Shown here: positions 844 to 14,326 of the stretch, in pieces
Numbering within the stretch: position 1 is the stretch's first letter
How the letters are laid out: each line of letters begins with the position of its first letter
From: Streptomyces antibioticus
Lineage (GTDB): Bacteria; Actinomycetota; Actinomycetes; Streptomycetales; Streptomycetaceae
DNA: 64,000 nt
Reading direction: 5' to 3'
Assembly (NCBI RefSeq): GCF_001514065.1
Contig: NZ_KQ948424.1
Span: forward strand, 965,568-1,029,567
The notes under the pieces: generated by a model
Databases searched by the model: none
What the model was told of the DNA's origin: nothing
Seen by the model: the letters and a program-made list of their open reading frames with translations, nothing else
Program-made: the position numbers and the translations under genes

Positions 844-2868
844 ATGCGGACGGCACCGAAGAAGGCGGACGGAACCACCCGTACGGAACTCCTCGCGGTC
901 CTCGCGATCCTCGCCTTCCTCGTCACCCTCTTCGCGACCGCCACGCCAACGGCCCAGGCATCACCTTCTTCCCCCGACACCCAAGCCGCCTACCTCGCGG
1001 AGCAACTCCGCGCCAACCCGGTCTACGTCACCGACCAACTCCCCCGCGAGATCCCGAAGTCCACCACCCCCGCCTTCACCAAGCTCGCGAAGCGCACCGG
1101 CGTCCCGACCTACGTCCTCGTCCTCCCCATGGAGGCCACCGACGGCGAGGCCCTCCTCGGCACGGTCCACGACCGTCTCGGCAAGGACGGCCTCTACGTC
1201 CTCATCGACGACTCGTCGGTCACGGACGCCACCGCGTACGGCGTGAGCGCCCCGGCAGACGACGCGGTCACCACCGCCCAGTACGAACTCCCCTTCGACG
1301 CAGGCCCGTTGCGCAGCTTCGAGCGCTTCGTCGACGTCATCGCGGAGGGCGGCGAGAAGGCCGCCGCACGTGCGGAGGCGGCCCGCGAGAAGTACGACTC
1401 CGACGGCGAACCGGCCGACATGTACATCGGGCCGAGCGACCGCGACAACCAGTCGTTCCTCACGGGCATGGCGATCACGGGCGTACCGCTGGCGATGCTG
1501 CTCCTGATCCCGTACGTACGACGCTGGTGGCGCCGCAGGCCGGGAGCGCCGGTGTCCCTCAACAAGAGGGCGCAGCACCGACGTTGGCGCCGCTGGCTGC
1601 TTCCAGCCGCCGCCGTCGCCACCGCCGCCGCGATCGCCGCGGCCGCCCCCCAGGTCTTCGACCAGACGACGTCGAGCGCCTCCCCACGCCCCCGCGCGAT
1701 CGACCTGAACGCCCGTCTCGACCGGGTCGCCGAGGGCCTGTCCCAGGACCCGATCTACCAGGACCCGGAGAGCCCGCGCGCCCTCGACAAGACGCAACTG
1801 GGGCAACTCCACGCCCGCATCGCGAAGTTCAAGACCTCGGAGGGCGGCGGCCCGGTCTTCATGGCCCTCGTCCCGCAGCTGTACGAGGACGAGTCCGGCA
1901 ACGACGAGGAGTACTTCGCGTACGCCGTCCACGACAAGCTGGGCAAGGACGGCGTGTACATCGTCGCGGACCCGCTGGACGGCTACATCGACGTCTTCAA
2001 CTACGGCCTGGGCCTGGACTCCTACAGCACCCTCTACGACCTCCCGGACTCCGTCACCTACGGCGACGAGAAGTCGGACGAGGCCGCCGACCACCTCCTC
2101 GGCGAACGCCTCACCACCGTCATGACCGCCCTGGACGAGGCGGAGCGCACGGACGACCCGACGACGCCGGGCGATCCGTACCCCCTCACCGACCCGATCA
2201 CCGAGGACGAGCTCAACCCCCTCTTCTACGGCGACTTCTGGCCGGGCCTGACCATCGGCGCCCTGGCCGCAGGCGCGCTGTTCGCGCTGGTGGCGGCGGC
2301 GTTGGGCATGGCTCGCAAGTCACTCCTGCGCCGCAACCCGGACCCGTTGCAGACCGCGGACCTCCCCACCGTCTCTCCGGCGATGCCGACGAAGCCGTAC
2401 CTCCGCGATACGGCCCGCGCCGAACTCCAGGCGATGGCACGCGAGTTCGGCGCCGGCGAGACGGCCGACACCCGCGCCCGCAACCGCTACGACGCGACGA
2501 TGCTCCTGGCTCCGCAGGGCGAGAACGTGGACGACCTGCCCCCGTCCACCCTCACCGCGATCATCATCCTGGCCCGAGCGACCCGGGCCGCCCTCGCCGG
2601 CGACGACAGCACCCTGTGCTGCGGCGTGAACCCGTTGCACGGCCCGGCGAAGACGAGCCGTCACGTCCGGACATCAACTGTGGAGACCCGAAGGCGGATG
2701 CTCCCGGTGTGCGAGGCCTGCCTCGACGACCCGCACAAGATCCCGGCCCGCCTGCTGAAGCTGCCACCGAACGGACGGCCGTACTACGAAGACGAGTTGC
2801 TGTCCGAGGCCCCCAAGGGCTTCACCAAGCTGGGCATGAAGGTACGGGAGGCGGCGCATGTCCAGTAG
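844..2868 (+). CDS. Four-TM protein with two TPM-like extracellular repeats
   Basis: 674 aa. ATG at 844 is chosen because AGGAGCAGGGGG lies just upstream and a signal-anchor (15-35) follows; the frame extends to GTG 748 but that adds a non-membrane leader. Order: anchor, extracellular repeat 1 (about 40-170), TM 205-225, short Arg-rich cytosolic loop, TM 251-272, extracellular repeat 2 (about 290-450), TM 465-489, cytosolic tail. Both repeats carry an H-D-[RK]-L-G-K-D-G motif followed by a hydrophobic strand, as in TPM (TLP18.3/Psb32/MOLO-1) domains; that family call is by eye. The tail has C592-C593, NPLHG (596-600) and CEAC (623-626), a possible metal site shared with the next gene, which overlaps by 11 bp. 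Function unknown. Confidence 0.8.
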   Translation: MRTAPKKADGTTRTELLAVLAILAFLVTLFATATPTAQASPSSPDTQAAYLAEQLRANPVYVTDQLPREIPKSTTPAFTKLAKRTGVPTYVLVLPMEATDGEALLGTVHDRLGKDGLYVLIDDSSVTDATAYGVSAPADDAVTTAQYELPFDAGPLRSFERFVDVIAEGGEKAAARAEAAREKYDSDGEPADMYIGPSDRDNQSFLTGMAITGVPLAMLLLIPYVRRWWRRRPGAPVSLNKRAQHRRWRRWLLPAAAVATAAAIAAAAPQVFDQTTSSASPRPRAIDLNARLDRVAEGLSQDPIYQDPESPRALDKTQLGQLHARIAKFKTSEGGGPVFMALVPQLYEDESGNDEEYFAYAVHDKLGKDGVYIVADPLDGYIDVFNYGLGLDSYSTLYDLPDSVTYGDEKSDEAADHLLGERLTTVMTALDEAERTDDPTTPGDPYPLTDPITEDELNPLFYGDFWPGLTIGALAAGALFALVAAALGMARKSLLRRNPDPLQTADLPTVSPAMPTKPYLRDTARAELQAMAREFGAGETADTRARNRYDATMLLAPQGENVDDLPPSTLTAIIILARATRAALAGDDSTLCCGVNPLHGPAKTSRHVRTSTVETRRRMLPVCEACLDDPHKIPARLLKLPPNGRPYYEDELLSEAPKGFTKLGMKVREAAHVQ

Positions 2869-4150
2869 GAGTGTGAGGGCCGCCCTGGCAGCCGCGCTCA
2901 TGACAGTGCTGCTCCCGACCGCCCCCTCCTGGGCAGCCGAGTCCCCAGGCGAACACATCGCGAACGCCCTGCAAGACTCCCCCGTCTACGTAGCTGATGC
3001 GTACGCGGATGCCGTACCCCCCTCCCGGCAACGGCAGTTGACCCAACAGATCGCGGCAACCGGCCTCCCCATCAAGGTGGTCCTGACCCCCCTCACGAAG
3101 GGCGACGCCTTCGACGGCGAGGCGAAGACCCTGGCCTCGGTGGTCCACGACCGCCTGGACCTCCGCAAGTTCATCCTCATCACTACGGACGGCGACTTCA
3201 CCGACTCCCTGAACGGCTACGAATGGCCGTCCGACACCCACCAGACGCGGCATGCCGTGGCGGCGGCCGGTTTCCTGGACGAGATGCGGGACGCGGGGCT
3301 GGCGGACCTGACGTCGAAGGCGGTGGAGCTGGTGGCGGAGGGGGACGGGACGCGGGTGTACGAGGAGGCGGTGGAGCACTTGGGAGACTCGGCCGCCGCC
3401 TCACCCACCCCCAACCCGAGCCCGGAGAAGGAGCCGGGGGCGGCCTGGCCACGACCGGCAATCGCCGCGCTGACGCTGCTGCCGCTGCTCGGGCTGCTCG
3501 GGCTGCTGACGCTGGGCGCCCTGCTCCTCGTACGAAAGCGTCGCAGGACATCCGGCCCCCAGCCCTCCCCCTTCGCGCACCCCCAGGCGGTGTTCGCGGC
3601 GGCCAGGGCGGCCGACGAGAGCGCCCTGCGCCGCCGGGTGGAGGCAGAGGTCATCGCACTCGGCGAAGCGGTCGCACGGGCCGAAACACCCTCATTGCAG
3701 AGGGCGTTGGATGCATATGCCGCCGCAGGCACGGTCCTCGACTCCGCACGCGGCCTGCCGGACCTGGCGGGCGTGCTGGCACTGGTGGCGGAGGGCCGCG
3801 ACGCCCTGACCGCCACGTCTACCGCGGCTCTCCCCCTCTGCTTCTTCAACCCCCTGCACGGCCGCGCCACCCGCCGCAGCACCTGGCGCCCCCTGGGCCG
3901 CCAGGACCGCGCCCGGGTAGCCACGTGCGCCGCCTGCACCGGCGCCCTGCGCCACCACCGCGCCCCCGAAGTCCTCACCGACACCACGGCGGACGGCCGC
4001 GAGGTCCCGTACTTCGAGGTGCCGGCCGAGTCGAGCGTGTGGGCGGCTACGGGGTACGGGTCGCTGCTGCGGGGCGGGGATTCGCTGACGGAGAGGGTGA
4101 CACCGGGCCAATTCACGCGAACCCAGGACGGGCGGTTGGACCCGCGTTGA
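2858..4150 (+). CDS. Single-repeat paralogue of the upstream TPM-like protein
   Basis: 430 aa, starting inside the upstream gene's last codons, so translational coupling is likely. Cleavable signal peptide (1-26, ending AW-A), one extracellular TPM-like repeat (about 30-150) with the V-H-D-R-L motif, a Pro-rich linker, a Leu-rich membrane helix (about 201-226) and a cytosolic tail. The tail repeats the upstream pattern: C328, NPLHG 331-335, then CAAC 357-360, followed by a PYFEVP stretch like the PYYE of its neighbour. The two proteins therefore share topology with a duplicated and a single ectodomain. They could pair as a surface sensor or an accessory to the secretion locus, which is inference only. 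Confidence 0.8.
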   Translation: MSSRSVRAALAAALMTVLLPTAPSWAAESPGEHIANALQDSPVYVADAYADAVPPSRQRQLTQQIAATGLPIKVVLTPLTKGDAFDGEAKTLASVVHDRLDLRKFILITTDGDFTDSLNGYEWPSDTHQTRHAVAAAGFLDEMRDAGLADLTSKAVELVAEGDGTRVYEEAVEHLGDSAAASPTPNPSPEKEPGAAWPRPAIAALTLLPLLGLLGLLTLGALLLVRKRRRTSGPQPSPFAHPQAVFAAARAADESALRRRVEAEVIALGEAVARAETPSLQRALDAYAAAGTVLDSARGLPDLAGVLALVAEGRDALTATSTAALPLCFFNPLHGRATRRSTWRPLGRQDRARVATCAACTGALRHHRAPEVLTDTTADGREVPYFEVPAESSVWAATGYGSLLRGGDSLTERVTPGQFTRTQDGRLDPR

Positions 4151-4184: not shown

Positions 4185-4234
4185 ATCGCTCCCGAATTCC
4201 CCCACAGATTTCATGTCTCACAGGAAGTGCACCC

Positions 4235-4897
4235 GTGAAGCCCCACCGTTTGCCCATTGCCGCTGCGCTCGCTACCACAGCGACCCTGCTCCTCACCGCC
4301 TGCGGCAACGGGGACACCGAAACCTCCGGACCCACCCAGGCAGCAGAGACACCGAGGGAGTCGGCACCGCGGGCGGTTGAATCCTCTGAGCCCGCTGAGG
4401 ACAAGCCGGACGGCGTGGACGTCTCCCTCCCCGAGGACATCAACCTGGTGTTCGACTGGACCAAGCCGAAGGACAGGAACGAAGCGGCGGCGATGGGCGG
4501 CGCCGCGAACTTCCTCCGAGCCATCTTTCGGGGCGTTGACAAGGGCACTACTGAGGACGCGACTGTCACTGCATACGCAACCGGCGGCGGCCTGAAGTAC
4601 GCGACCACGCAGATCAACGCCTATATCGACGGCGGCTGGACTGTCACCGGCACCCGGCGCCATTACGGCGCCACCACACGGTCCACCTCGAACGGCAGGT
4701 CGGTGGAGGTGGCGTTCTGCTCGGACTCGACCAAGTTCTACGGCAAGGAGACCAAGACGGGGAAAGTCCTCAAGACCGAGCCCAGCATCAAGGATTTCAG
4801 CCACTTCGACATCATCATGGTCAAGTACCCGACGGGTACGGATCTGTGGCAGGCGTCGAAGGTGTACGTCGAGACGGAGTCGGCGAGGTGCCGATAA
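4235..4897 (+). CDS. Secreted lipoprotein (tandem copy 1)
   Basis: 220 aa. GTG start with AGGAAG upstream. The N-terminus is a lipoprotein signal with lipobox LTAC and acylated Cys at 23, then an Ala/Pro/Glu-rich linker, then a compact domain (about 65-220) containing F-D-W-T-K-P-K-D, two later cysteines and K-V-Y-V near the end. The mature domain is closely matched by the next gene, so this is a tandem duplication. It should sit on the outer face of the membrane. No enzyme motif is visible. Its place upstream of the secreted protein and WXG-like genes suggests a surface accessory of that locus. Confidence 0.85.
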   Translation: MKPHRLPIAAALATTATLLLTACGNGDTETSGPTQAAETPRESAPRAVESSEPAEDKPDGVDVSLPEDINLVFDWTKPKDRNEAAAMGGAANFLRAIFRGVDKGTTEDATVTAYATGGGLKYATTQINAYIDGGWTVTGTRRHYGATTRSTSNGRSVEVAFCSDSTKFYGKETKTGKVLKTEPSIKDFSHFDIIMVKYPTGTDLWQASKVYVETESARCR

Positions 4898-4898
4898 C

Positions 4899-5135
4899 CG
4901 GACCCCGCGGGCTCGGACGGCTCGCCGGCACGTCCAGGGCTGTCGCCCGTTCGGGCACGATCAGGACACAGCTCACACCCACAGGCGCCCCATATGGCCG
5001 GTATTGATCCCGTTCGCAGGGAACTTCGCTCTGGCGAAAGCGGGAACCTCACCGATAGCGTCGGACCTCTTGACTGAACTTATTTCTCACGGGGAGTTCA
5101 CTGTGAAGCGCCGCACTTTGCCCGTTGCCGCCGCG
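4899..5135 (+). repeat. Promoter-region repeat, copy A
   Basis: This intergenic stretch plus the first codons of the second lipoprotein gene is recognisably repeated at 10433-10668. Long identical blocks include GATCAGGACACAGCTCACAC, TTCGCTCTGGCGAAA and CTCTTGACTGAACT. Two palindromes are conserved: TTCGC-N4-GCGAA (5025-5038) and CCGA-N5-TCGG (5052-5064). In the latter the centre differs between copies while the arms are kept, which suggests a selected binding site. TTGACT in the last shared block could be a -35 element. Confidence 0.75.
5025..5038. promoter_or_regulatory. Palindrome TTCGC-TCTG-GCGAA (site 2 of 3)
   Basis: Same 5-bp arms and 4-bp gap as at 775-788, located 65 bp upstream of the GTG at 5103. 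It lies in copy A of the duplicated promoter region. Confidence 0.5.
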
Positions 5136-5774
5136 CTGGTGGCGACGGCTTCACTGCTGCTGACGGCCTGCGGCAGCGGGGACGACGGCTCGAAGGGCAA
5201 CGACAAGATCGCAGGCGCGGGCCAGGGGGCGGAGACGCCTGGCGCGTCGGCGTCGGCCTCCGGAGCGCCGGCGGAGGACAAGCCTGATGGTGTGGATCTG
5301 TCGCTCCCCAAAGACCTGACCATGGTCTTCGACTGGACCAAGCCGAAGGACGAGAACGAGGCAGCGGCGATGGACGACGCCGCGAACTTCCTCCGGGCCA
5401 TCTACCGAGGCATCGACAAGCGCACGACCAAGGACGCGGCCTTGTCCACGTACGCCACCGGCGACGGACTCCACTACGGAGAGGTGCAGATCAACGCCTG
5501 GATCAAGGGTGGCTGGACGGCAACCGGCACAGAACGCCACTACGACGTCAGCACCCGGTCCACCACGAACGACCAGGCCGTGGAAGTGGCCTTCTGCGTT
5601 GACTCGACCAAGTTCTACGGCAAGGAGATCAAGACCGGAAAGGTCCTGAAGACCGAGCCCAGCATCAAGGACTTCGACTACTTCAAGATCATCATGACCA
5701 AGTACCCCACAGCTGACGACCTGTGGCAGGCGTCCAAGGTCTACGTCCAGACCAAGGCGGCGAAGTGCCAGTGA
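5103..5774 (+). CDS. Secreted lipoprotein (tandem copy 2)
   Basis: 223 aa. GTG 5103 is used because GGGGAG precedes it and the signal then matches copy 1 exactly in layout (lipobox LTAC, Cys 23); the frame extends to 5004 but that would bury the signal sequence. The mature domain (about 65-223) aligns end to end with copy 1, including F-D-W-T-K-P-K-D and the closing W-Q-A-S-K-V-Y-V. The stop overlaps the next gene's start in GTGA, tying it to the secreted protein as an operon. The start of this gene is the part that survives as a remnant at 10640. Confidence 0.88.
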   Translation: MKRRTLPVAAALVATASLLLTACGSGDDGSKGNDKIAGAGQGAETPGASASASGAPAEDKPDGVDLSLPKDLTMVFDWTKPKDENEAAAMDDAANFLRAIYRGIDKRTTKDAALSTYATGDGLHYGEVQINAWIKGGWTATGTERHYDVSTRSTTNDQAVEVAFCVDSTKFYGKEIKTGKVLKTEPSIKDFDYFKIIMTKYPTADDLWQASKVYVQTKAAKCQ

Positions 5775-6850
5775 GCGGACCACAGCGCATACTGATCGGC
5801 ACCGCAGCCCTGACTCTGGCTCTCAGCGTCCTCGTCCTCGCGCAGCCCGCCTACGCGGCAGGGCCGGCAGGCAAGGACGAGGGGGCCAGCACGGAGCAGT
5901 CCGGCGGAGGAGATTCGACCGGCATCCACGCGACCGCCAAAATCCAGTACTCCGGCTCCGTCACCAAAAACGGCAGCACCGGCAACGTGACATCGTCGGA
6001 CGTCAACTGGACGCCCCCGCCCTGCTGGTACGCCCCCTACCTCGGCGCCAAGGACTTCAAGAAGAAGATGTCCGAGGAGATCGAGCAGGCCAAGAACACT
6101 CCCGGCATGGGCGGCACCGCCGGAACGGCGATCGGCCAGGTGCAGCAGCACTACGAGGACGACTACGGCTGGACCGACCACCCCGGCTACAAGGACTACA
6201 ACGTCGACAAGGACGGCGAGGGGATGTTCTGGGCCGGCGTGGAGAACCCCAACGAGCCCGACGTCCTCAAGCGCAACTCCTGCAACGAACTCCCTTTCTG
6301 GGTGGAGAACGGCGACACCCCGCCACCCCAGTACGAAGAGGCGATCAAGCCGGAGATCCTCGCGGCCCTGGCGTACCAGCACATGACGCTCCCGGACACC
6401 AAGGTCACCCTCGCCCCCGCGGCCACGACCAAGGTGAACCTCCCGACCTGGGCCTGGCTCGACAAGGCCGTCTTCGACGAGGTCCAGGCGACGGCGGCCG
6501 TCAATGTCCCCGGTTTCAACATCCAGGCGACGACCACGGCCAAGCCGGTGTCCCTGAAGCTGGAGCCGGGCACGGACGACGCCCAGACCTACCCGGCTTC
6601 GGGCGAATGCACGATCAACGCCGACGGCTCGATCGGCGAACCGTACGCGAAGGGCAAGTCGGACGAGACCCCGCCCTGCGGCCTCAAGTACCTGCGCTCT
6701 TCGGGCGACGGAACGTACAAACTCCGCGCCACGATCACCTGGCAAATCTCCTGGACCGGCACGGGCGGCGCCGGCGGCGACCTGCCCGACGGCACCTTCG
6801 GCAACGAGCAGGCAGTGACCGTCCAGGAAATCCAGGCCGTCAACCGCTGA
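5771..6850 (+). CDS. Secreted protein with four cysteines
   Basis: 359 aa. GTG start inside the upstream stop. Signal peptide of about 31 residues ending A-Y-A-A, then a soluble exported chain rich in Trp, Tyr and Pro. Four cysteines remain in the mature part (in PPCWYAP, NSCNELP, GECTI and PPCGLKY), suggesting two disulfides. The C-terminus has an alternating polar/hydrophobic pattern (ITWQISWTG) typical of beta strands. I recognise no enzyme family. It sits between the lipoproteins and the WXG100-like gene; a degraded copy of its last 48 bp lies at 10728-10775. Confidence 0.82.
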   Translation: MSGPQRILIGTAALTLALSVLVLAQPAYAAGPAGKDEGASTEQSGGGDSTGIHATAKIQYSGSVTKNGSTGNVTSSDVNWTPPPCWYAPYLGAKDFKKKMSEEIEQAKNTPGMGGTAGTAIGQVQQHYEDDYGWTDHPGYKDYNVDKDGEGMFWAGVENPNEPDVLKRNSCNELPFWVENGDTPPPQYEEAIKPEILAALAYQHMTLPDTKVTLAPAATTKVNLPTWAWLDKAVFDEVQATAAVNVPGFNIQATTTAKPVSLKLEPGTDDAQTYPASGECTINADGSIGEPYAKGKSDETPPCGLKYLRSSGDGTYKLRATITWQISWTGTGGAGGDLPDGTFGNEQAVTVQEIQAVNR

Positions 6851-6885
6851 CAACGGAACCGTCACACGCAGGGGGAGGGTACTGA

Positions 6886-7182
6886 GTGTCCGACTCAGAC
6901 CTTATTGTCGACTATGAGTTTCTCGCCGAGTCGGAGAAAAAACTCGGCCAGCTGAAGAAGACGTTCGAGGACATCGAGAACCGTCGCGACGACATGCGCG
7001 AGCACTGGGGTTCCGGAAAAATCGCCGACGTCATGAATGACTTCGTCGACAACTGGGACGACTACCGCGCGAAGCTCATCGACAACCTCGAAACCGTCGG
7101 CCAGATGGTGGCCGGCACCAAGAAGGCATTCGAGGATCTCGACAACCAGTTGGCCAAGCGCGACAAGAAGAAGCAGAAGTGA
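6886..7182 (+). CDS. WXG100-like small protein, module 1
   Basis: 98 aa, GTG start behind a strong AGGGGGAGGG. Two amphipathic helices separated by a turn with H-W-G-S-G, the position of the WXG motif in ESAT-6-like secreted proteins, then a Lys-rich C-terminus. No signal peptide, as expected for type VII substrates. The length is typical of WXG100 proteins. The stop overlaps the next start, so it likely pairs with the product of 7179-8537. Its paralogue is at 10836-11135. Confidence 0.78.
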   Translation: MSDSDLIVDYEFLAESEKKLGQLKKTFEDIENRRDDMREHWGSGKIADVMNDFVDNWDDYRAKLIDNLETVGQMVAGTKKAFEDLDNQLAKRDKKKQK

Positions 7183-8537
7183 CGCCGAAATCCAAGCGCC
7201 GCCCACTCGACTGGCAGCCGCTCCGCGATTCCGACCCGGTACCCGGAGACCCGGAGGAGATCCGCGCCGAGGTCACCCACATGGTGTCGGTCGCCGAGAA
7301 GCTGAGGGAACAGGCCAAGAACCTCCAGACGATCAGCAACGAGGAAAAGCTCAAGGGCAAGTACGCCAAGAGCCTTCGTGAGGAGTCCTCCACGCTGGAG
7401 AAGCACATGCGGGAGGTGGCCAGTCGTTACGAGCGCGTCCACACCCATCTCACGACGTGGTCCAACGAGTTGGAGGACTTCCAGACCGAGGCCGACAAGG
7501 TTCTGCACCGGGCCAAGGAAAGACAGGACGAGCTTGAGGCCGAAAAGGCCAAGGAGGCCAAGGAGGCCGACTCCGGCGACAAGAGCACTCCCAAGCCCTC
7601 CGTCAGCGGGACCGACCACGATCCGTATGTGACGTACCGGAATCAGCTGAACGCGATCACTGATGCCCGCGACGGCCGCGCCGAACACCACGAGGGCAAG
7701 ATCCGGGCGGAGATCGAGGACATCATCGAGGACTCCTGGTGGGACAACGTAAAAGGCTGGGTCCATGAGCATGCGGACGCGATCAAGGCCTTCATGGATG
7801 TCCTCGGCTGGGTCGCGACGGTGGCAGGCTTCCTGGCGCTCGCCATTCCCGGCTTGAACATGCTCGTCCTTGGCATCGCGCTGCTCACCATCGGGCTCAG
7901 ACTCCTATTGGTGGCATCCGGCGACGCCACCTGGACAGATGTCATCTTCGATGTCGTAGGTGGGCTGCTGGTCGTGGGTGGGCTCGGGGCGGCCGCGAAG
8001 CTCGCCAGTGGCGCCAAGGCTACGGTTGGTGCCGCCCAGGCCGCCCGGACCGCCGGCCTGAGCCGAGGGCTCAGCGGTGTCAAGGGCATCCTGGACGACA
8101 CAGGGCGGCTGATGACCAAACTGCCGCAAGGGTCAGGGCGACAGGCCCTCGGAGCGGCCCGCAACGCGATGCGCAAGTCCATCTCCCAGAATGTCGGCCT
8201 GGTGGCCAAAGGGCCGCTGCGGGTCAGCCCCTTGTCGACGCTGGTACACCTCGGCGACAAGGAGATGGCCGGCATGGCGAAGATGTTGCAGGCAAACAAA
8301 GCCACCTTCCCTGCGGCCGCGGGCGCTGCGGCGGACAAGGCGTACAAGTCCTATCAGGCGGGTCTCGGAATCGCCTGGACCGGCATGGGGATGGACGTCA
8401 TGGACAAGACGCTCGGAAAGAGCGACCTGACAAGCTGGACCCACGAAAACTTCGGTACCGGCGAGAAGCCGTACAACGCGGCGTACTCGGACTGGAAGGA
8501 CAACACCCTGAAGCCCGCCCCCGACACCCACTGGTGA
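7179..8537 (+). CDS. Large WXG-like protein with membrane hairpin, module 1
   Basis: 452 aa. N-terminal helical hairpin (about 25-125) resembling an extended WXG/LXG domain, but the expected Trp of the turn is replaced (E-K-L-K-G-K-Y), followed by T-W-S-N-E-L-E-D-F-Q. A charged Glu/Lys linker follows, then a hydrophobic hairpin (about 207-246), an Ala/Gly-rich segment and a short C-terminal tail. The paralogue at 11137 has the same order and retains W-K-G. I cannot assign the C-terminal part to any toxin family. Cotranslated with the small partner upstream, it is a plausible type VII substrate. Confidence 0.78.
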   Translation: MTPKSKRRPLDWQPLRDSDPVPGDPEEIRAEVTHMVSVAEKLREQAKNLQTISNEEKLKGKYAKSLREESSTLEKHMREVASRYERVHTHLTTWSNELEDFQTEADKVLHRAKERQDELEAEKAKEAKEADSGDKSTPKPSVSGTDHDPYVTYRNQLNAITDARDGRAEHHEGKIRAEIEDIIEDSWWDNVKGWVHEHADAIKAFMDVLGWVATVAGFLALAIPGLNMLVLGIALLTIGLRLLLVASGDATWTDVIFDVVGGLLVVGGLGAAAKLASGAKATVGAAQAARTAGLSRGLSGVKGILDDTGRLMTKLPQGSGRQALGAARNAMRKSISQNVGLVAKGPLRVSPLSTLVHLGDKEMAGMAKMLQANKATFPAAAGAAADKAYKSYQAGLGIAWTGMGMDVMDKTLGKSDLTSWTHENFGTGEKPYNAAYSDWKDNTLKPAPDTHW

Positions 8538-8546
8538 GGAATGACC

Positions 8547-8960
8547 ATGGACCTGAACTCGGCGCACCGCATCGCCGAGGCCGAAGCCGGCCGCACCGGG
8601 CTCGGCACCGGCCCTAACCGGCGGCTCCGGCTGACATTGATCATCGGGATGCCGCTGTTTCTGCCGGTACTGGGAATCTTGATCCTGGTGCCGAAGTCCC
8701 TGCGGAATGAGGTCCTCTACGTCTACGAGGCCGGGATCATCGGCTGCCTTCTGCACTATGTCTGGGTCTTCGTGAAGTACCCCCGGTACGCGGATCGTCC
8801 GCCCTACCTCACCCGCGACCTCGCCATGGGCGGCGGTTTCTACCTGCCCTCGCTGTTCTTCGGCTTCTGGCCGGGGATGATCGCCGCCCCGGCGTGGGCG
8901 CTCTTCGTAGGCATTGCCTACGCTGCGGACGTAAGACGGGGGCGCAATGACCACCGCTGA
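8547..8960 (+). CDS. Small integral membrane protein
   Basis: 137 aa with four hydrophobic stretches (about 30-50, 57-75, 90-108 and 110-127) and an Arg-rich end. ATG 8547 is preferred over ATG 8541 because GAGGA ends at 8540, giving a 6-bp gap to 8547 and none to 8541. Overlaps the next gene by 14 bp. There is no equivalent in module 2. A role such as immunity or anchoring is guesswork from position only. Confidence 0.72.
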   Translation: MDLNSAHRIAEAEAGRTGLGTGPNRRLRLTLIIGMPLFLPVLGILILVPKSLRNEVLYVYEAGIIGCLLHYVWVFVKYPRYADRPPYLTRDLAMGGGFYLPSLFFGFWPGMIAAPAWALFVGIAYAADVRRGRNDHR

Positions 8961-9579
8961 GCAGCGCCGGTCCCCGAACGGTTTCAACCTGGTGCCGCCG
9001 CCCGGCTGGGACGTGATTCCGCTACGCACGGGCACCAGGGAAGCGATGGACCGCATCATCCGGAAGGCCGTCGCACAGTTGCCCGTCGGCTTTCCCAAGG
9101 ACGACATTCCGAAGGCCCGACTGAAGCTCGCCCAGGAGATGAAGAAGGTCGTCCGCAGGGCCAGGGCCAAGGGGGGTATGACCCTCTACCTCCCCACCGA
9201 ACGCCTTCACGGCATCGCGCTGCCCGTTTCGTTCGTGGCTTCGGAACCGATCGAGATCCCCCGAGTCAGGCCCGACAGCGGCCCGGAAGCGGTTATGGCC
9301 GCGCTCGCTTCCGAGATCCCTGGTGCCGAGACGCGGGAACTCGACGACACTGCGGCCCTACGCTCGGAGAGAGACGTGCCTGCCGACCCGGCTCAGGGCG
9401 TCGACGTCGCCCACCGCCAAGTCGAGTACCTCGTTCCCGTTCCGGACAGCGTCCCCGACCAGTACCTTGCCTTCTCCTTCAGCGCCCTGATCGCGCCCGG
9501 CTCGGATCCCGTCTTCTACGACACCCTGGTGGAGTTGTTCGATGCCGTGATGGGCACCTTCCGCTGGAGCTACGCCTGA
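8947..9579 (+). CDS. Soluble partner protein of the T7-like module (first)
   Basis: 210 aa, no signal or membrane segment. It starts P-N-G-F-N-L-V-P-P-P-G-W, has an N-terminal helical part (about 25-75), a beta-rich middle and a C-terminal strand-helix unit with a repeated strand/T-F-R-W ending. The last 50 residues follow the same pattern as the products of 9621 and 12366. That layout, strands then a final amphipathic helix, resembles Mog1/PsbP-type folds, but this is only a guess. Position directly after a candidate type VII substrate suggests a chaperone or immunity partner. Confidence 0.72.
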   Translation: MTTAEQRRSPNGFNLVPPPGWDVIPLRTGTREAMDRIIRKAVAQLPVGFPKDDIPKARLKLAQEMKKVVRRARAKGGMTLYLPTERLHGIALPVSFVASEPIEIPRVRPDSGPEAVMAALASEIPGAETRELDDTAALRSERDVPADPAQGVDVAHRQVEYLVPVPDSVPDQYLAFSFSALIAPGSDPVFYDTLVELFDAVMGTFRWSYA

Positions 9580-9620
9580 AGGTTCCCTTCCGTCGCGCCC
9601 CCTGAAGAAAGAGACCACGC

Positions 9621-10262
9621 ATGTCCGAAGGCACCCTGTGGAGCATCGACCTTGGCGCCCCGCTCCCCATCGATACGGATGCCAACCCAGACCTCTGGGG
9701 CTATCTTCACCTTCAGATCGACAAGAAGACCTTCAAGGAATGGCTGGACCTGCACCTGACCGGCCTGGCCGCCGTCCATGACGTCGAACTCACCCGCAAA
9801 CTGCGGCGTTTCCACAAGAGCTTCTACGAGCAGACGATCGTCACACTCAGGGACAAGCTCCAAGCCGACGAGGCGTTCATCTACCACCCTGTTCCACTGA
9901 CGTACATGCCGCTGGTGATGCACGCCACCCTCATCCACTGCGGGGCCCCTGACGCGGCTTCCTGCGAGGGAATCACCGCGCTCACGGTGCCGCACCCGGA
10001 AATCCCCGAGTGGCAGCAGCGAACCGGCAGCGAGCCGTTCGCCTCTCCGTATCTGGGCGGAGACGGGGTACGGGTCACTCGCTCCTACCCTGCGGACAGC
10101 ACCATCATGATGACCTCGGTGACGTACCACTGGCACACCTCGCCCGGCCTCCCCGACGTCCTGCTCCGCGGCCACCATGACGATCCGGAAGTGATCGCCG
10201 CCGCGATGGAGGCACTGGACGACTTCGCACGGACGCTCCGCCTTCCCGCGAAAGCCCATTGA
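9621..10262 (+). CDS. Soluble partner protein of the T7-like module (second)
   Basis: 213 aa, cytosolic, with a GAAAGAGA ribosome site. The N-terminus reads L-W-S-I-D-L-G-A-P-L-P-I-D, then a helical stretch (about 32-80), a strand-rich middle and a final strand (S-V-T-Y-H-W-H) followed by a helix ending in R-T-L-R-L. The closing strand-helix matches the ends of the proteins at 8947 and 12366 in layout. It is the last intact gene of module 1. No family recognised. Confidence 0.72.
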   Translation: MSEGTLWSIDLGAPLPIDTDANPDLWGYLHLQIDKKTFKEWLDLHLTGLAAVHDVELTRKLRRFHKSFYEQTIVTLRDKLQADEAFIYHPVPLTYMPLVMHATLIHCGAPDAASCEGITALTVPHPEIPEWQQRTGSEPFASPYLGGDGVRVTRSYPADSTIMMTSVTYHWHTSPGLPDVLLRGHHDDPEVIAAAMEALDDFARTLRLPAKAH

Positions 10263-10639
10263 GGAGTCTCGACGTTGCCGGTCCGCCAGGATCGGCACCC
10301 CTTCGGCATACACAGCCTCTGATGCTCAGGTCGGTATGGGCAGGCATGCCCACAGCGAGCCCCCGCCCCATGCCGACGTTTCTCCTGCTGCTCATGCCAG
10401 ACATGCAGGGCGCTGCGAACATACAGCGAACCGTCTGACCGCGGGCGGCCTCGGACACCGCTCGCCGACACGTCTGTGACCGTCGCCCGTTTGAGAACGA
10501 TCAGGACACAGCTCACACCCGCGAGAACCCCATACGCCCGACTTGCCCTCGTTCACAGGCAAGTTCGCTCTGGCGAAACAGGGAACGTCACCGATACCTT
10601 CGGATCTCTTGACTGAACTGATGTCACACGGGAGTCACT
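10263..10639. other. Intergenic decay zone before module 2
   Basis: No convincing gene lies in this stretch. The first 170 bp hold nothing recognisable beyond short inverted repeats such as GGGCAGGCATGCCC. The rest is promoter-repeat copy B. Composition is less third-position biased than the flanking genes, as expected for non-coding DNA. Confidence 0.55.
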
Positions 10640-10668
10640 GTGAAGCGCCGCACCTTGCCCACTGGGGT
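10433..10668 (+). repeat. Promoter-region repeat, copy B
   Basis: Degenerate direct copy of 4899-5135. It keeps GATCAGGACACAGCTCACAC, TTCGCTCTGGCGAAA, the CCGA-N5-TCGG palindrome (10591-10603) with a changed centre, CTCTTGACTGAACT and the GTG start with the first seven codons of the lipoprotein gene. Similarity breaks off just after 10660, where the lipoprotein coding sequence is lost. Confidence 0.75.
10564..10577. promoter_or_regulatory. Palindrome TTCGC-TCTG-GCGAA (site 3 of 3)
   Basis: Identical 14-mer to site 2, kept although the gene that followed it in copy A has been lost here. Retention suggests it now serves the module 2 genes starting at 10836. Confidence 0.5.
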
Positions 10669-10775
10669 TGATGCGACGCGGAAACGCCGGCGTCCCCGAG
10701 TCCAGGCGCTGACGACTCGGCGGCGTCGACAGACAAGCCGTGAGGATCCAGGAAAGCCAAGCCGCCAACCGCTGA
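10640..10775 (+). pseudogene. Fused remnant of lipoprotein and secreted-protein genes
   Basis: The first codons (GTG, then K-R-R-T-L-P) match the start of the lipoprotein gene at 5103. The last 48 bp (10728-10775), ending CCAACCGCTGA, match the end of the secreted-protein gene (6803-6850) at roughly three quarters of positions by eye. Everything between, about 1.5 kb in module 1, is missing or scrambled. The residual open frame is an Arg-rich nonsense peptide with no signal sequence. This indicates an ancestral duplication followed by internal deletion. Confidence 0.7.
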
Positions 10776-10835
10776 TCTCACAGATGAGCGGCCGACTGGC
10801 TCCGAGTCGCGCCGTAAGAGAAATCCGGACAGGAC

Positions 10836-11135
10836 ATGAGTGATCTGCGGCTCGAAGACACCATCTTCGAGCACCTGAAGAAGACCTTCTCCTCCATCAG
10901 CGACCGCATGGAGGACGCCCGCCGCGACCTCAAGGGCACCGATGCCACGGCCGTGGGCGAGAGCAAACTCGTCGAGGACGTGCAGGACTTCGCCGACGAC
11001 TGGGGCTACGGCATCAAGCAGCTCGGCAAGCACACCCACGGCGCGGTGAAGATGATCAACAAGATCAGCGAGACCTTCGACAAGCTCGACCTGGAGCTGG
11101 CCGAGTCTCTCAAGGTCAAGAAGAAGGGCAAGTGA
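10836..11135 (+). CDS. WXG100-like small protein, module 2
   Basis: 99 aa, ATG behind GGACAGGA. Paralogue of the product at 6886: same helix-turn-helix length, Lys-rich tail and the pattern V-Q-D-F-A-D-D-W after the turn. At the WXG position it has A-V-G-E-S, so the Trp has been replaced. No signal peptide. The next gene starts one base after the stop, so the two are co-translated and likely form a heterodimer-like pair. Confidence 0.78.
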   Translation: MSDLRLEDTIFEHLKKTFSSISDRMEDARRDLKGTDATAVGESKLVEDVQDFADDWGYGIKQLGKHTHGAVKMINKISETFDKLDLELAESLKVKKKGK

Positions 11136-11136
11136 C

Positions 11137-12312
11137 GTGGCGGGCCAGCGGACCTTCCCGCACATAGGCTGGGACCCCACTCCCGGGAATGTCGAGGACA
11201 CACGCGAACTGGCCAAGCGCCTCGGCAGGTTGGCCGGCGAGCTGGGTACGGCGGTACGCGAGCTGGAGCGGATCGAGTGCGGCGCCTGGAAAGGCAAGAC
11301 CGCCATCGCCTTCACCGAGTACATAGGCGAGGACGTCACGCCTCTCATCCGCAAGAGCCACGAGTCCTTCGACAAGGCCTCCCGCGCCCTGCACCGTTGG
11401 GCGAACGAACTCCAGGACTTCCAGGACGAGGCGGACCGGCTGGAGAAATCGGCGGGCGAGAAGCTCGAAGCCAAGGGCCAGGCCAAGGAGGGCACTGAGG
11501 AATACGGCAAGGCCTCCGGCGACGTCAACGAGGTCACCAACAAGGTCCACGACCTCGAGGACCGCTACAAGCTGGCAGCCGGCAAGATCGGCAAGGAGCT
11601 GGACAAGGCCGCCGACATCGCCCCGGACGAGCCCGGCTTCTGGGACAAGCTCGGCAAGGGCATCGCGGACGCCTGGGACGCCACCGGCGACTGGCTGAAG
11701 GAACACGCCGATCTGATCAAGGAGATCGGTGATGTACTGAGTCTGGTGAGCGGCGCCTTGGGTCTTCTCGCGATCATCACCGCACCCTTTGAACCGGTCG
11801 GCGCCTTCTTCGCTGCTGCGGCGATGATCGCAAGCGGCGCGGCCCTCCTGACCCATGTGGTCGCCAAAGCAGCTGGCGCGGACGTCAGTTGGGCCGATAT
11901 TGGGCTCGATGCCCTCGGCATCCTTCCTGGTGTCAAGGGCCTACTCGGCACCGCCGAACTCGCCAAGGGCACAAACGCCGCAGCACGCGCCGCGAAGCTC
12001 GGCGCAGGCTACGAAGGAGCCATGGAATCTAAGAAATTGTTCATCCTTTTCGGTCCGGTGAAGGAAGTCCCGGTGGTCAAGCTTGCCCAAGGCGGCAGCC
12101 GCATGAAGCTCGCCGTCGAGAGCGGGCTGCAGAATTTCCGCCAAGGCCAGTGGATGGGCACTCAGGGAGCGAACCTAATCGCCTCCAAACTGCCCTTCGT
12201 GAAGAGCGCCGAGGCAATCGCACCCATGGGAAATCTGGGTCGCGGCTTGGATGCCGCCATCAAGGCAGGTCTCGTCGGACACAAAGCAAACACCATCGCC
12301 ACTGCGAACTGA
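11137..12312 (+). CDS. Large WXG-like protein with membrane hairpin, module 2
   Basis: 391 aa. The N-terminal domain (about 15-110) has a canonical A-W-K-G-K turn and the L-H-R-W-A-N-E-L-Q-D-F-Q helix shared with the module 1 paralogue. A charged linker and a W-L-K-E-H-A-D motif precede a hydrophobic hairpin (about 200-240), then an Ala/Gly-rich segment. The C-terminus is shorter than and unlike that of its paralogue, the way polymorphic substrates keep a common N-terminus with variable ends. Probable type VII substrate; activity unknown. Confidence 0.78.
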   Translation: MAGQRTFPHIGWDPTPGNVEDTRELAKRLGRLAGELGTAVRELERIECGAWKGKTAIAFTEYIGEDVTPLIRKSHESFDKASRALHRWANELQDFQDEADRLEKSAGEKLEAKGQAKEGTEEYGKASGDVNEVTNKVHDLEDRYKLAAGKIGKELDKAADIAPDEPGFWDKLGKGIADAWDATGDWLKEHADLIKEIGDVLSLVSGALGLLAIITAPFEPVGAFFAAAAMIASGAALLTHVVAKAAGADVSWADIGLDALGILPGVKGLLGTAELAKGTNAAARAAKLGAGYEGAMESKKLFILFGPVKEVPVVKLAQGGSRMKLAVESGLQNFRQGQWMGTQGANLIASKLPFVKSAEAIAPMGNLGRGLDAAIKAGLVGHKANTIATAN

Positions 12313-12365
12313 GCACGTCCGTACGTTCGTGATCGCCGCGGAGTCTCAAGAAGAAGAGTCACAGT

Positions 12366-13031
12366 ATGGACAGTGCCGAACAGCCCCAGGTGCTCAGTGT
12401 GGAAGGCATGGCCCTGCCACCCATGGCCATCCGCCTCCCCGAAGGCCTACACGCGATCGAGGTCTCACTGGACGAGGCCGAACGGACCGCAGCCGTGGAA
12501 CAACTGGTCCGGGACATCTATCCACAAGGCGAGGTGCCCTTGTGGCAAGCCATGAGCGCCTTGTACAGCGCAAGTGCTCTGGAGATGTTGTCGGCCGGCG
12601 TCTCCTTCTTCGGCATCGGCCTCTACGACATCGAGGACGGCGGCGGCGTAGCACACTGTTCGCTGACTGTGGCGGTGTTCGAGTCCGGCGAAGCGGAACA
12701 GGACACCGTCGCTCACGGCATCTTCGCCCTTCTGAGCCCCGACCCCATGCGTGACGTGACATGGCTGGACCTGCCTTGTGGTCCCGCGGTTTCGGCGATC
12801 TCCTTCCGTAAGCTCGTGATCGACGGCCAGTACACGAAAAGCGGCAAGGACGAGGAGCTGTCGATGGGGCAGATGCAGGTGCACATCCCCTTCTCGACCG
12901 GCCCGTACACGGCCGTGGTCACCTTGGACACAGCCTCGGTCGAGCAGTGGGAGGAATTCACCCACGCCATGGCCGGGATCGTTGGTTCGTTGGAGTTTCC
13001 GATGGATGACTCAGAAAAGGTGACACTCTGA
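12366..13031 (+). CDS. Soluble partner protein, module 2
   Basis: 221 aa, cytosolic. N-terminal strand, helical segment (D-E-A-E-R-T-A-A-V-E-Q-L), a glycine-rich middle (S-F-F-G-I-G-L-Y), then strands ending in M-Q-V-H-I-P-F and a last helix closing I-V-G-S-L-E-F. The layout and the final strand-helix agree with the proteins at 8947 and 9621, so all three probably belong to one family used as cognate partners of the WXG-like substrates. Its stop overlaps the next start (TGATG). Confidence 0.7.
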   Translation: MDSAEQPQVLSVEGMALPPMAIRLPEGLHAIEVSLDEAERTAAVEQLVRDIYPQGEVPLWQAMSALYSASALEMLSAGVSFFGIGLYDIEDGGGVAHCSLTVAVFESGEAEQDTVAHGIFALLSPDPMRDVTWLDLPCGPAVSAISFRKLVIDGQYTKSGKDEELSMGQMQVHIPFSTGPYTAVVTLDTASVEQWEEFTHAMAGIVGSLEFPMDDSEKVTL

Positions 13032-13921
13032 TGGGATGGCACCCCGGGGCCGACGAGGAACCCCTCTTCCGGATCACCGTCACGTTCGCCACCGGCGTGG
13101 CACCCGCGGTGGCGGACAGCAGGTGGTTCCGCGACCCTCAACGCAACGACATCCAGGACGAGTTGGATGGCTGGCCCGCCGGGCCAGTGTTCACGCCGCA
13201 TACGACGGGCGATCAGGCTGCTCGTCGCACCGGTCGCGGCCTCCTCGGCGCCGTCCAGGTCATCGCGAACCTCGTTGCCAATGTCGGCGGTGCCGCTGGT
13301 TCGCCCTTCGGCAGTGCTGCCGGTGGTGAAAAGCCCGAAGAACCCGAGAACGAGGTTCAAGATTTCCCGGTGATGTGGGCAGCTCCCCGCGCTCTCGCCC
13401 GTACCGTCCCTTGGCAGCTGGATCCTGGGCGACAGCCGGATGGCTACCGCACTGATCTTGTCCTGACCACTCGACGACTGCTGTTCCTCGGCGTCCGAGA
13501 CACCAAAATCGACGAGGAGGAAGTGCTCGCCGAATTTCCTCGTGAGGCGATCTCGGGTGCTCAGAGAATGAAGTTCAGCAGGGTCAGCGCGGATGTGCGC
13601 ATGACCTTCTCCGACCGATCCTGGGTCCGACTCTTCACTGGCAATTCGAATTGCGCCGATCGAATCGTCGGCATCCTCTCCGGGAACGATCAGGTCGTGC
13701 CCGAGAGCGTCCTTTCGGAAGGGCAGCGCCGACGGGTTAACCAATTTATGTCAGGCCATCGCGACGCAACACAAGGCCCGGTGTACATCAAGCTGAACAG
13801 TGGAATCGTCTTCGTGGAGACCTACGTTCCATCAAAGGCAGGAAAGGGTCTCGTCAATGCGGTCGGAATTCTGATGGACGAGGCAGGCGAGCCGGCGCAG
13901 CCGCGTCCAGGCGACCTGTAA
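13031..13921 (+). CDS. Protein with PH-like domain, end of module 2
   Basis: 296 aa, coupled to the previous gene. The first 75 residues are a mixed region; 70-105 is Ala/Gly-rich and could touch the membrane. Around 145-215 the pattern L-V-L-T-T-R-R-L-L-F-L-G, then alternating strands and F-S-D-R-S-W-V-R-L-F resembles bacterial PH-like domains, by eye only. The C-terminus is hydrophilic. Function unknown; transcription likely ends at the hairpin 13968-14005. Confidence 0.68.
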   Translation: MGWHPGADEEPLFRITVTFATGVAPAVADSRWFRDPQRNDIQDELDGWPAGPVFTPHTTGDQAARRTGRGLLGAVQVIANLVANVGGAAGSPFGSAAGGEKPEEPENEVQDFPVMWAAPRALARTVPWQLDPGRQPDGYRTDLVLTTRRLLFLGVRDTKIDEEEVLAEFPREAISGAQRMKFSRVSADVRMTFSDRSWVRLFTGNSNCADRIVGILSGNDQVVPESVLSEGQRRRVNQFMSGHRDATQGPVYIKLNSGIVFVETYVPSKAGKGLVNAVGILMDEAGEPAQPRPGDL

Positions 13922-14026: not shown

Positions 14027-14326
14027 TCACTTACGAGCCGACTTCGCCAGCTCCTCATCGATCTGCTCGAACTTGTCCGCCGCGGTCGTCAGGTAGTCCC
14101 CCATCCCGTCCAGACCATCCAGCGTGTCCTTCGTGCCCCGCACGAACTCGTCGAAGTTCTCGTCGAAGGCCTTGGACGAGCTCTTCGTCACGTAGCCGGA
14201 CTGGACGAGGTTGTTGATGTACTTCTTCAGCCCGTCGAGCTTCTCCTGGAGCTTTTCCTTCTCCTTGACGACGTGCTTCGCAGCGTCGCGCATGTCCTGA
14301 TATGTGACATCAAGGTCCTTGGCCAT
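14027..14326 (-). CDS. WXG100 family protein, divergent from the ATPase
   Basis: 99 aa, starting M-A-K-D-L-D-V-T-Y with GGGAG upstream. Helix-turn-helix of WXG100 type: the turn reads S-G-Y-V-T-K-S-S-S-K-A-F, in which the Trp is replaced by Tyr, and the second helix ends in a Lys/Arg tail. It is transcribed away from the EccC-like ATPase gene across a 390-bp shared region, the usual setting of a type VII substrate beside its motor. It is not coupled to a second small WXG gene, so it may act as a homodimer. Confidence 0.85.
   Translation of the reverse strand: MAKDLDVTYQDMRDAAKHVVKEKEKLQEKLDGLKKYINNLVQSGYVTKSSSKAFDENFDEFVRGTKDTLDGLDGMGDYLTTAADKFEQIDEELAKSARK

Follow-up and report, generated by a model that had tools for sequence, protein, structure and literature searches.

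In Firmicutes, small helical partner proteins stand beside the LXG proteins of type VIIb secretion loci. A small protein (W) likewise stands beside a large one (L) at the locus described here, where two adjacent gene modules lie in a stretch of 64,000 nucleotides (hereafter the window; positions 965568-1029567 on contig 3; the genome is 10.1 Mb in size, and the nearest named relatives found are Streptomyces). Module 1 (4899-10262) comprises a leader, genes for a putative lipoprotein (LP) and a putative secreted protein (SEC), the W/L pair, and genes M, N, and O. Module 2 (10445-13921) comprises a leader, a remnant of an LP linker, a remnant of the SEC end, another W/L pair, and genes P and Q. 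Similar to the LXG polymorphic toxin loci of type VIIb systems, as outlined in PMC9600955 and PMC5555719, the large protein is conserved in its N-terminal part and varies more towards the C-terminus. Unlike in those loci, we found no known toxin domain in L, and the LXG and WXG100 scores stay below the cut-offs; in addition, the pair is often preceded by a front cassette of LP and SEC, and the host is Streptomyces.

Two other comparisons are relevant. The immunity genes esaG and tipC of type VII secretion systems (T7SS), as summarized in PMC9484751, likewise have common blocks at gene ends and lose and gain paralogues by recombination. Unlike in that summary, it is the operon front (leader, LP, and SEC) that is exchanged here, and the conservation of the SEC 3' end reflects protein constraint. 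In polymorphic toxin systems, as sketched in PMC3482391, the C-terminal part is likewise exchanged along with neighbouring genes; by contrast, the two C-terminal types found here are still ∼41% identical, which suggests that a single fold has diverged and not that one toxin replaced another. The literature examined, mostly at the level of abstracts (including PMC9484751, PMC12691689, and PMC3482391), contained no description of this module.

Remnants of a front cassette in module 2

The best full explanation, which we hold with good confidence, is that module 2 lost its cassette while keeping the leader, and that it belongs to a family of modules built of three exchangeable blocks. It draws on remnants, gene-bearing orthologues, repeated loss, and a conflict between leader ancestry and pair type, all of which are observed. 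The blocks would be a front cassette (leader, LP, and SEC), a conserved core (the WXG100-like W, with L up to about residue 250), and a back block (the C-terminal part of L with P and Q), presumably moved by recombination.

As claimed in an earlier note on this DNA, the promoter region and first LP codons of module 1 recur before the module 2 pair. The repeat (4907-5123 vs. 10445-10660) is 81.3% identical over 219 columns; its E value is 9e-54 when searched within the opening 16 kb of the window and 1.8e-50 when searched in the whole genome. It takes in the LP start codon and the first seven codons (5103-5123 vs. 10640-10660), and was also recovered as repeat families D3, D5, and D10. The end of the SEC gene recurs as well: 34 of 42 positions are identical between 6809-6850 and 10734-10775 (E 7e-7 in the same 16 kb), a score equalled in none of 300 dinucleotide shuffles. 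The repeats are real, although the outer limits first given for them (10433-10668, 6803, and 10728) are too wide by 6 to 12 nt. A genome-wide search with 10440-10800 at E 0.001 returned the query itself and the module 1 leader, and no others. Between the leader and the SEC end of module 2, intact LP and SEC coding regions are indeed absent. As the same leader, remnant, and pair are present in S. justiciae, an assembly error is unlikely. That the second module once had LP and SEC genes and lost both, with the leader and the small/large pair kept, is supported, as is the recurrence of this loss among relatives.

The stretch between the two repeats (10661-10733) is less readily read in the window itself. 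It has no significant match to the module 1 LP and SEC genes (129/300 and 45/300 shuffles equal or better), and its match to 66 LP genes is at chance level (61/200 shuffles as good), which weighs against its being an LP remnant. It is alignable with the orthologous stretch of S. justiciae (L068; other loci are likewise given by L numbers), and the latter matches the LP genes of L086, L093, L060, and L073, with 81% identity over 48 nt (E 7e-7) in the case of L086. The match falls on the LP linker, codons about 38-53 of the subtype B LP genes, with 0/200 shuffles as good, and the six top-scoring of the 66 LP genes are all of this subtype, which is 34-36% like the LP of the window. In the L068 frame, VMRRALPAGADTGDTETSASPSPG, the LP start runs in frame into the linker, present in L093 as AGADTGNTKTSASPSPS; ∼29 codons with the signal peptide and lipobox are missing, and a second break precedes the SEC end. 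The subtype B linker means that the lost cassette was of another subtype than the type A LP of module 1. Hence, in the lineage that includes the window and S. justiciae, the module 2 cassette would have carried a subtype B lipoprotein, and what was lost would be LP codons about 9-37 together with everything between the LP linker and the last SEC codons.

Weak genus matches to 10661-10733 at L025 and L026 were considered as its origin and rejected, these loci being without any module protein. At 10640-10843 the window has a 67-codon open frame that begins at the former LP start and extends into the first part of W; S. justiciae has a different frame of 37 codons.

Old paralogues and probable exchange of blocks

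Alternatively, as the earlier note proposed, module 1 might have been duplicated in this lineage as a single 5-kb segment, one of the copies later suffering an internal deletion. We consider this very improbable. The leader, the SEC end, and the W/L pair do stand in a common order in both copies, and over the aligned span the two leaders of the window are 79% identical, against 77% for the module 2 leader and its S. justiciae orthologue. However, the pairs are paralogues of a distant kind, with only 28-31% identity between L type 1 and L type 2. Each pair type has its own orthologues, and both types coexist in L031, L038, L072, and L099. In the 95-nt core, the leaders of the window are 86% identical, whereas the module 2 leader and the S. 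justiciae orthologue are 94% identical and pair firmly in the leader tree (100/97). A single clade for all 30 leaders before type 2 pairs is rejected (approximately unbiased, AU, test, p 3e-70). Finally, the LP remnant is of subtype B and the module 1 LP of subtype A. The proposed duplication is thus not supported, and these points speak against a recent event; the whole module may have been duplicated in ancient times, with the front cassette swapped later.

Comparison of close relatives suggests how such conflicts arise. In L082 and L085, the W genes are 98% and L 92-95% identical, while LP and SEC have 64-65% nucleotide identity (shuffled control 61%) and the SEC proteins are 41% identical. 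With W/L near-identical and LP/SEC near background, the front cassettes have been exchanged. The two parts of L behave differently, too: in four of the eight pairs compared, residues 1-250 are 77-85% identical and residues 260 to the end 41-42%, with the P/Q order switched each time. The swaps seen between close relatives affect either the front cassette (L082/L085) or the C-terminal part of L with P and Q (L077/L101, L084/L094). The identity of L to that of the window is 70-100% in 9/9 modules with the order P-Q and 56-64% in 31/31 modules with the order Q-P. On the W/L tree there are at least four changes of LP-SEC subtype (23 modules) and at least four changes of P/Q order (40 modules).

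Several points weigh against free exchange of blocks. The clustering of type 2 leaders exceeds chance (5 label changes vs. 7.4 in shuffled data, 7/500 as low), the leader tree is based on a short alignment and its bootstrap is not settled, and in L072/L074 the identity of L drops from 97% to 55% in the C-terminal part although the P/Q order is the same. Still, the sequence comparisons support the view that the front cassette reassorts among old modules that existed before.

The SEC 3' end was considered as a recombination arm at the DNA level, and rejected. In 51 genes, the codon identity was 0.69 at conserved residues (16 columns) and 0.64 elsewhere (105 columns); in a residue-matched comparison, the values were 0.68 and 0.66. 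Conservation of this end in the DNA follows from that of the protein.

Cassette loss among Streptomyces modules

We searched 150 genomes of the genus, including that of the window. The front region of module 2 had matches in 26 of them, 24 in the leader and two (G037, G045) solely in 10685-10730. In total, 40 type 2 modules were collected: 34 loci of named Streptomyces records found with the type 2 W as a query, five further ones, and the window. For classing, we used a leader model made from 56 LP-preceding leaders, and SEC was counted as near-full when the match immediately upstream spanned 260 aa or more.

Gene-bearing versions of the module, which the earlier note suggested seeking in related strains, do exist, as a near-full SEC lies directly upstream in 23/40 type 2 modules. 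In 21 of these it directly precedes the W/L pair (the match in L095 being 281 aa), with the leader found in 20 of the 21 and none in L096; the other two (L070, L075) have an extra leader. Twelve modules have the leader directly before W (the window, L068, L072, L073, L074, L078, L080, L084, L087, L090, L091, L092). The remaining five are L031, with the last 112 SEC residues, L081, with SEC fragments, and L061, L098, and L100, with neither. By contrast with the cassette, W and L are present in 40/40 modules, always with P or Q or both; both were found in 38, and the contigs of L071 and L083 end shortly past one of the two.

Presence or absence of the cassette changes at least eight times on the W/L tree (two mixed modules omitted). 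Here parsimony has no power to tell loss from gain, which counts against reading every change as a loss, and loss is evident only in modules bearing remnants. Such remnants mark losses in the window together with L068, in L072 (SEC end, 96% over 23 nt), L084, L031, and L081, and LP-start remnants are present in L080 and L087. In L084 (Streptomyces sp. Ag109_O5-1) compared with L094 (S. shenzhenensis DSM 42034), the sequences are closely similar as far as LP codon 8 and once more between the last SEC codons and W; ∼1.6 kb is gone, and at the junction LP codons 1-8 are in frame with the last SEC codons, leaving 24 codons. Cassette losses are not limited to type 2 modules: among 11 type 1 modules, six are intact, one is intact with a weak leader, two have W immediately preceded by a weak leader (16 and 19 bits), and two are other. 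Orphan or near-orphan SEC 3' ends, possibly further lost cassettes, were seen at L054:7246-7281, L055:13265-13327, L082:13708-13777, and L094:12396-12468.

Alternatively, the leader alone could have been copied before module 2 as a captured promoter, LP and SEC never having been present in this lineage. This would fit the six modules in which a leader precedes W and no SEC end is seen (L078, L080, L087, L090, L091, L092), two of them (L090, L091) with the leader abutting the W start. It is contradicted by the SEC end in the window and the LP linker in S. justiciae, neither of which was equalled by shuffles, and by the near-full SEC directly upstream in more than half of the modules, and we regard it as very improbable. 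The linker match slightly raised our already good confidence in the loss, and took both this alternative and segmental duplication from unlikely to distinctly more so. The least credible idea is that the remnant has been retained as a small gene, for instance one encoding a fused peptide of 24 aa (L084), 37 aa (S. justiciae), or 67 aa (the window). In its favour, the LP start and the SEC end of L084 share one reading frame, and the frame of the window is open from the LP start into the W start. Against it, the three frames are unlike in content and end, that of the window is shifted off the LP frame, and the SEC end is not seen in 6/12 direct-leader modules aligned.

Under loss with the leader kept, this leader would be the promoter now driving W-L-P-Q directly. 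The consensus core of 70 leaders (GTTCgCtcTGGCGAAACC...CcGATAcCGTC...CACGGGGaGtcCACtGTGAAGCGCCGC) contains an inverted repeat TTCGC/GCGAA, a TAnnnT motif, and a ribosome site. TAnnnT would be a -10 element, judging by the consensus of the main Streptomyces sigma factor. In the genome, the pattern of the repeat plus TAnnnT is found at both leaders with one mismatch and at one further site with three, with none in the reversed control, and TAnnnT is present in 12/12 aligned leader copies before W (L075 and all direct-leader modules but L073, which is not in the alignment). In six pairs of deleted modules, with members common to several pairs, the leader core is more conserved than the fourfold sites of L (6/6) and than the 100 nt upstream (6/6). 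On the other side, it exceeds the fourfold sites of W in just 3/6 pairs, and the remnant DNA is still 0.75-0.84 alike in the four pairs having one. It is thus likely, albeit not proved, that the leader stayed under selection once the cassette was gone. At the gathering threshold, Rfam had no match in 4200-11200, and the leader fits no known RNA element there.

Leaders also stand directly before distant W/L pairs, 25-29% like that of the window (L037:11042, L093:13181), or before N-like genes (L056:1564, L077:13100). These allow a more speculative reading, about which we are doubtful: the leader may be a portable promoter with a private regulon and a recombination anchor, plugging different W/L modules into one circuit, with LP-SEC as a shared, trans-acting surface accessory that can be shed.

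Predicted functions and layout of the locus

The LP and SEC proteins of the window had no Pfam or NCBIfam match above the cut-off (NF053527, 24.2 vs. 105, for LP4235, the LP upstream of module 1; DUF3558, 14.1 vs. 34.1, for LP5103, the LP of module 1). For their relatives, the best E values were 0.0068 among 50 SEC and 7.8e-4 among 55 LP (a viral model, 3 matches). SEC matches were found in 59/150 genomes of the genus, some of them weak or partial, and in 17/296 genomes of the phylum, the 12 outside the genus being weak and confined to residues 160-359. Among the sequences of solved structures, no credible match was found for the profiles of SEC, LP, or type 2 L (best E 0.38, 0.063, and 0.04, respectively).

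The module family is likely linked to type VII secretion, which is a reading of its sequences rather than membership in a family. Scores and gene content weigh against it. W6886 is below the cut-offs of WXG100 (PF06013; Table 1) and NCBIfam TIGR03930 (19.3 vs. 44.85), and W10836 has no WXG100 match in Pfam at E 0.1. L11137 is below the cut-offs of T7SS_signal (PF21725; Table 1) and LXG (PF04740, 17.4 vs. 26.5), and L7179 matches neither of these Pfam models at E 0.1. Moreover, the sole EccB match of the genome is on contig 1, and the window on contig 3; the module may use this distant EccB. With toxin models, L7179 and L11137 gave none over the cut-off, the one weak match being a coiled-coil match to the LegC2/C7 effector model (19.1 vs. 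350 bits).

Together, L and P/Q share with polymorphic toxin systems a conserved N-terminal part, a variable C-terminal part, and matching downstream genes. L would be an effector-like substrate, and P and Q its cognate partners, serving in immunity or as chaperones. As L stays where LP-SEC is gone, LP and SEC are unlikely to be the obligatory immunity of L in cis; P and Q, which track the L type, would be better candidates. LP and SEC may be accessory surface proteins, dispensable in cis and perhaps supplied by other copies. In 16/16 searched genomes without an intact adjacent type 2 cassette (11 direct-leader, 5 other), SEC has 2-9 matches, with at least one near full length; the genome of the window, apart from those 16, has three SEC matches. 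Since cassette carriers often have multiple SEC copies too, spare copies are no proof of complementation. Two further SEC genes lie on contig 3, at 417338-418333 (56%) and 945885-946895 (45%), with no leader found beside either.

Table 1. Features of the two modules (positions in the window)
Feature	Position	Strand	Evidence or remark
Module 1 leader: promoter region, ribosome site, first seven LP codons	4899-5123	+	81% to 10445-10660; leader-model match 4999-5125, 122 bits
LP, putative lipoprotein gene of module 1, subtype A, 223 aa	5103-5774	+	LLTAC lipobox-like motif by eye
SEC, putative secreted-protein gene of module 1, 359 aa	5771-6850	+	N-terminal signal-like segment by eye; 3' end repeated in module 2
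W type 1, small WXG100-like protein	6886-7182	+	Pfam WXG100 E 1.9e-5, 25.2 bits, below cut-off (27.3)
L type 1, large LXG-like partner	7179-8537	+	28-31% identity to type 2 L
Genes M, N, O, downstream in module 1	8541-8960, 8947-9579, 9621-10262	+	84-90% identical behind type 1 pairs of L031, L058, L064
Module 2 leader, LP and SEC probably lost behind it	10445-10660	+	Inverted repeat TTCGC-TCTG-GCGAA and TAnnnT
Putative decayed lipoprotein-linker remnant	10661-10733	+	Orthology with S. justiciae (L068); own stretch not significant
SEC 3'-end remnant	10734-10775	+	81% to 6809-6850, E 7e-7
W type 2, small protein	10836-11135	+	Relatives at 34 loci in named Streptomyces records
L type 2, large partner	11137-12312	+	Pfam T7SS_signal E 7e-6, 26.5 bits vs. 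cut-off 27
Gene P, downstream in module 2	12366-13031	+	P/Q order tracks L type
Gene Q, downstream in module 2	13031-13921	+	P/Q order tracks L type

Upstream of module 1, LP is tandem-duplicated (LP4235 and LP5103; 4390-4904 vs. 5267-5781), with ∼66% protein and 78-80% DNA identity, and only the last part of a leader is left at the LP4235 copy (4204-4256, 16.6 bits). Adjoining module 2, a WXG100 protein is encoded on the minus strand at 14027-14323 (Pfam E 1.3e-17, far above the W of either module). The adjacent genes 748-2868 and 2858-4150 have a common region that is 31% similar, and their homologues are found near modules in L045, L050, L053, L097, L098, and L101.

The 40 modules, with several separate losses, form a natural deletion series for gene families without known function. 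The series separates the part that can be shed (LP and SEC) from the part that every module has (W and L, along with P or Q or both), and points to candidate effector and partner genes, candidate surface accessories, and a putative promoter.

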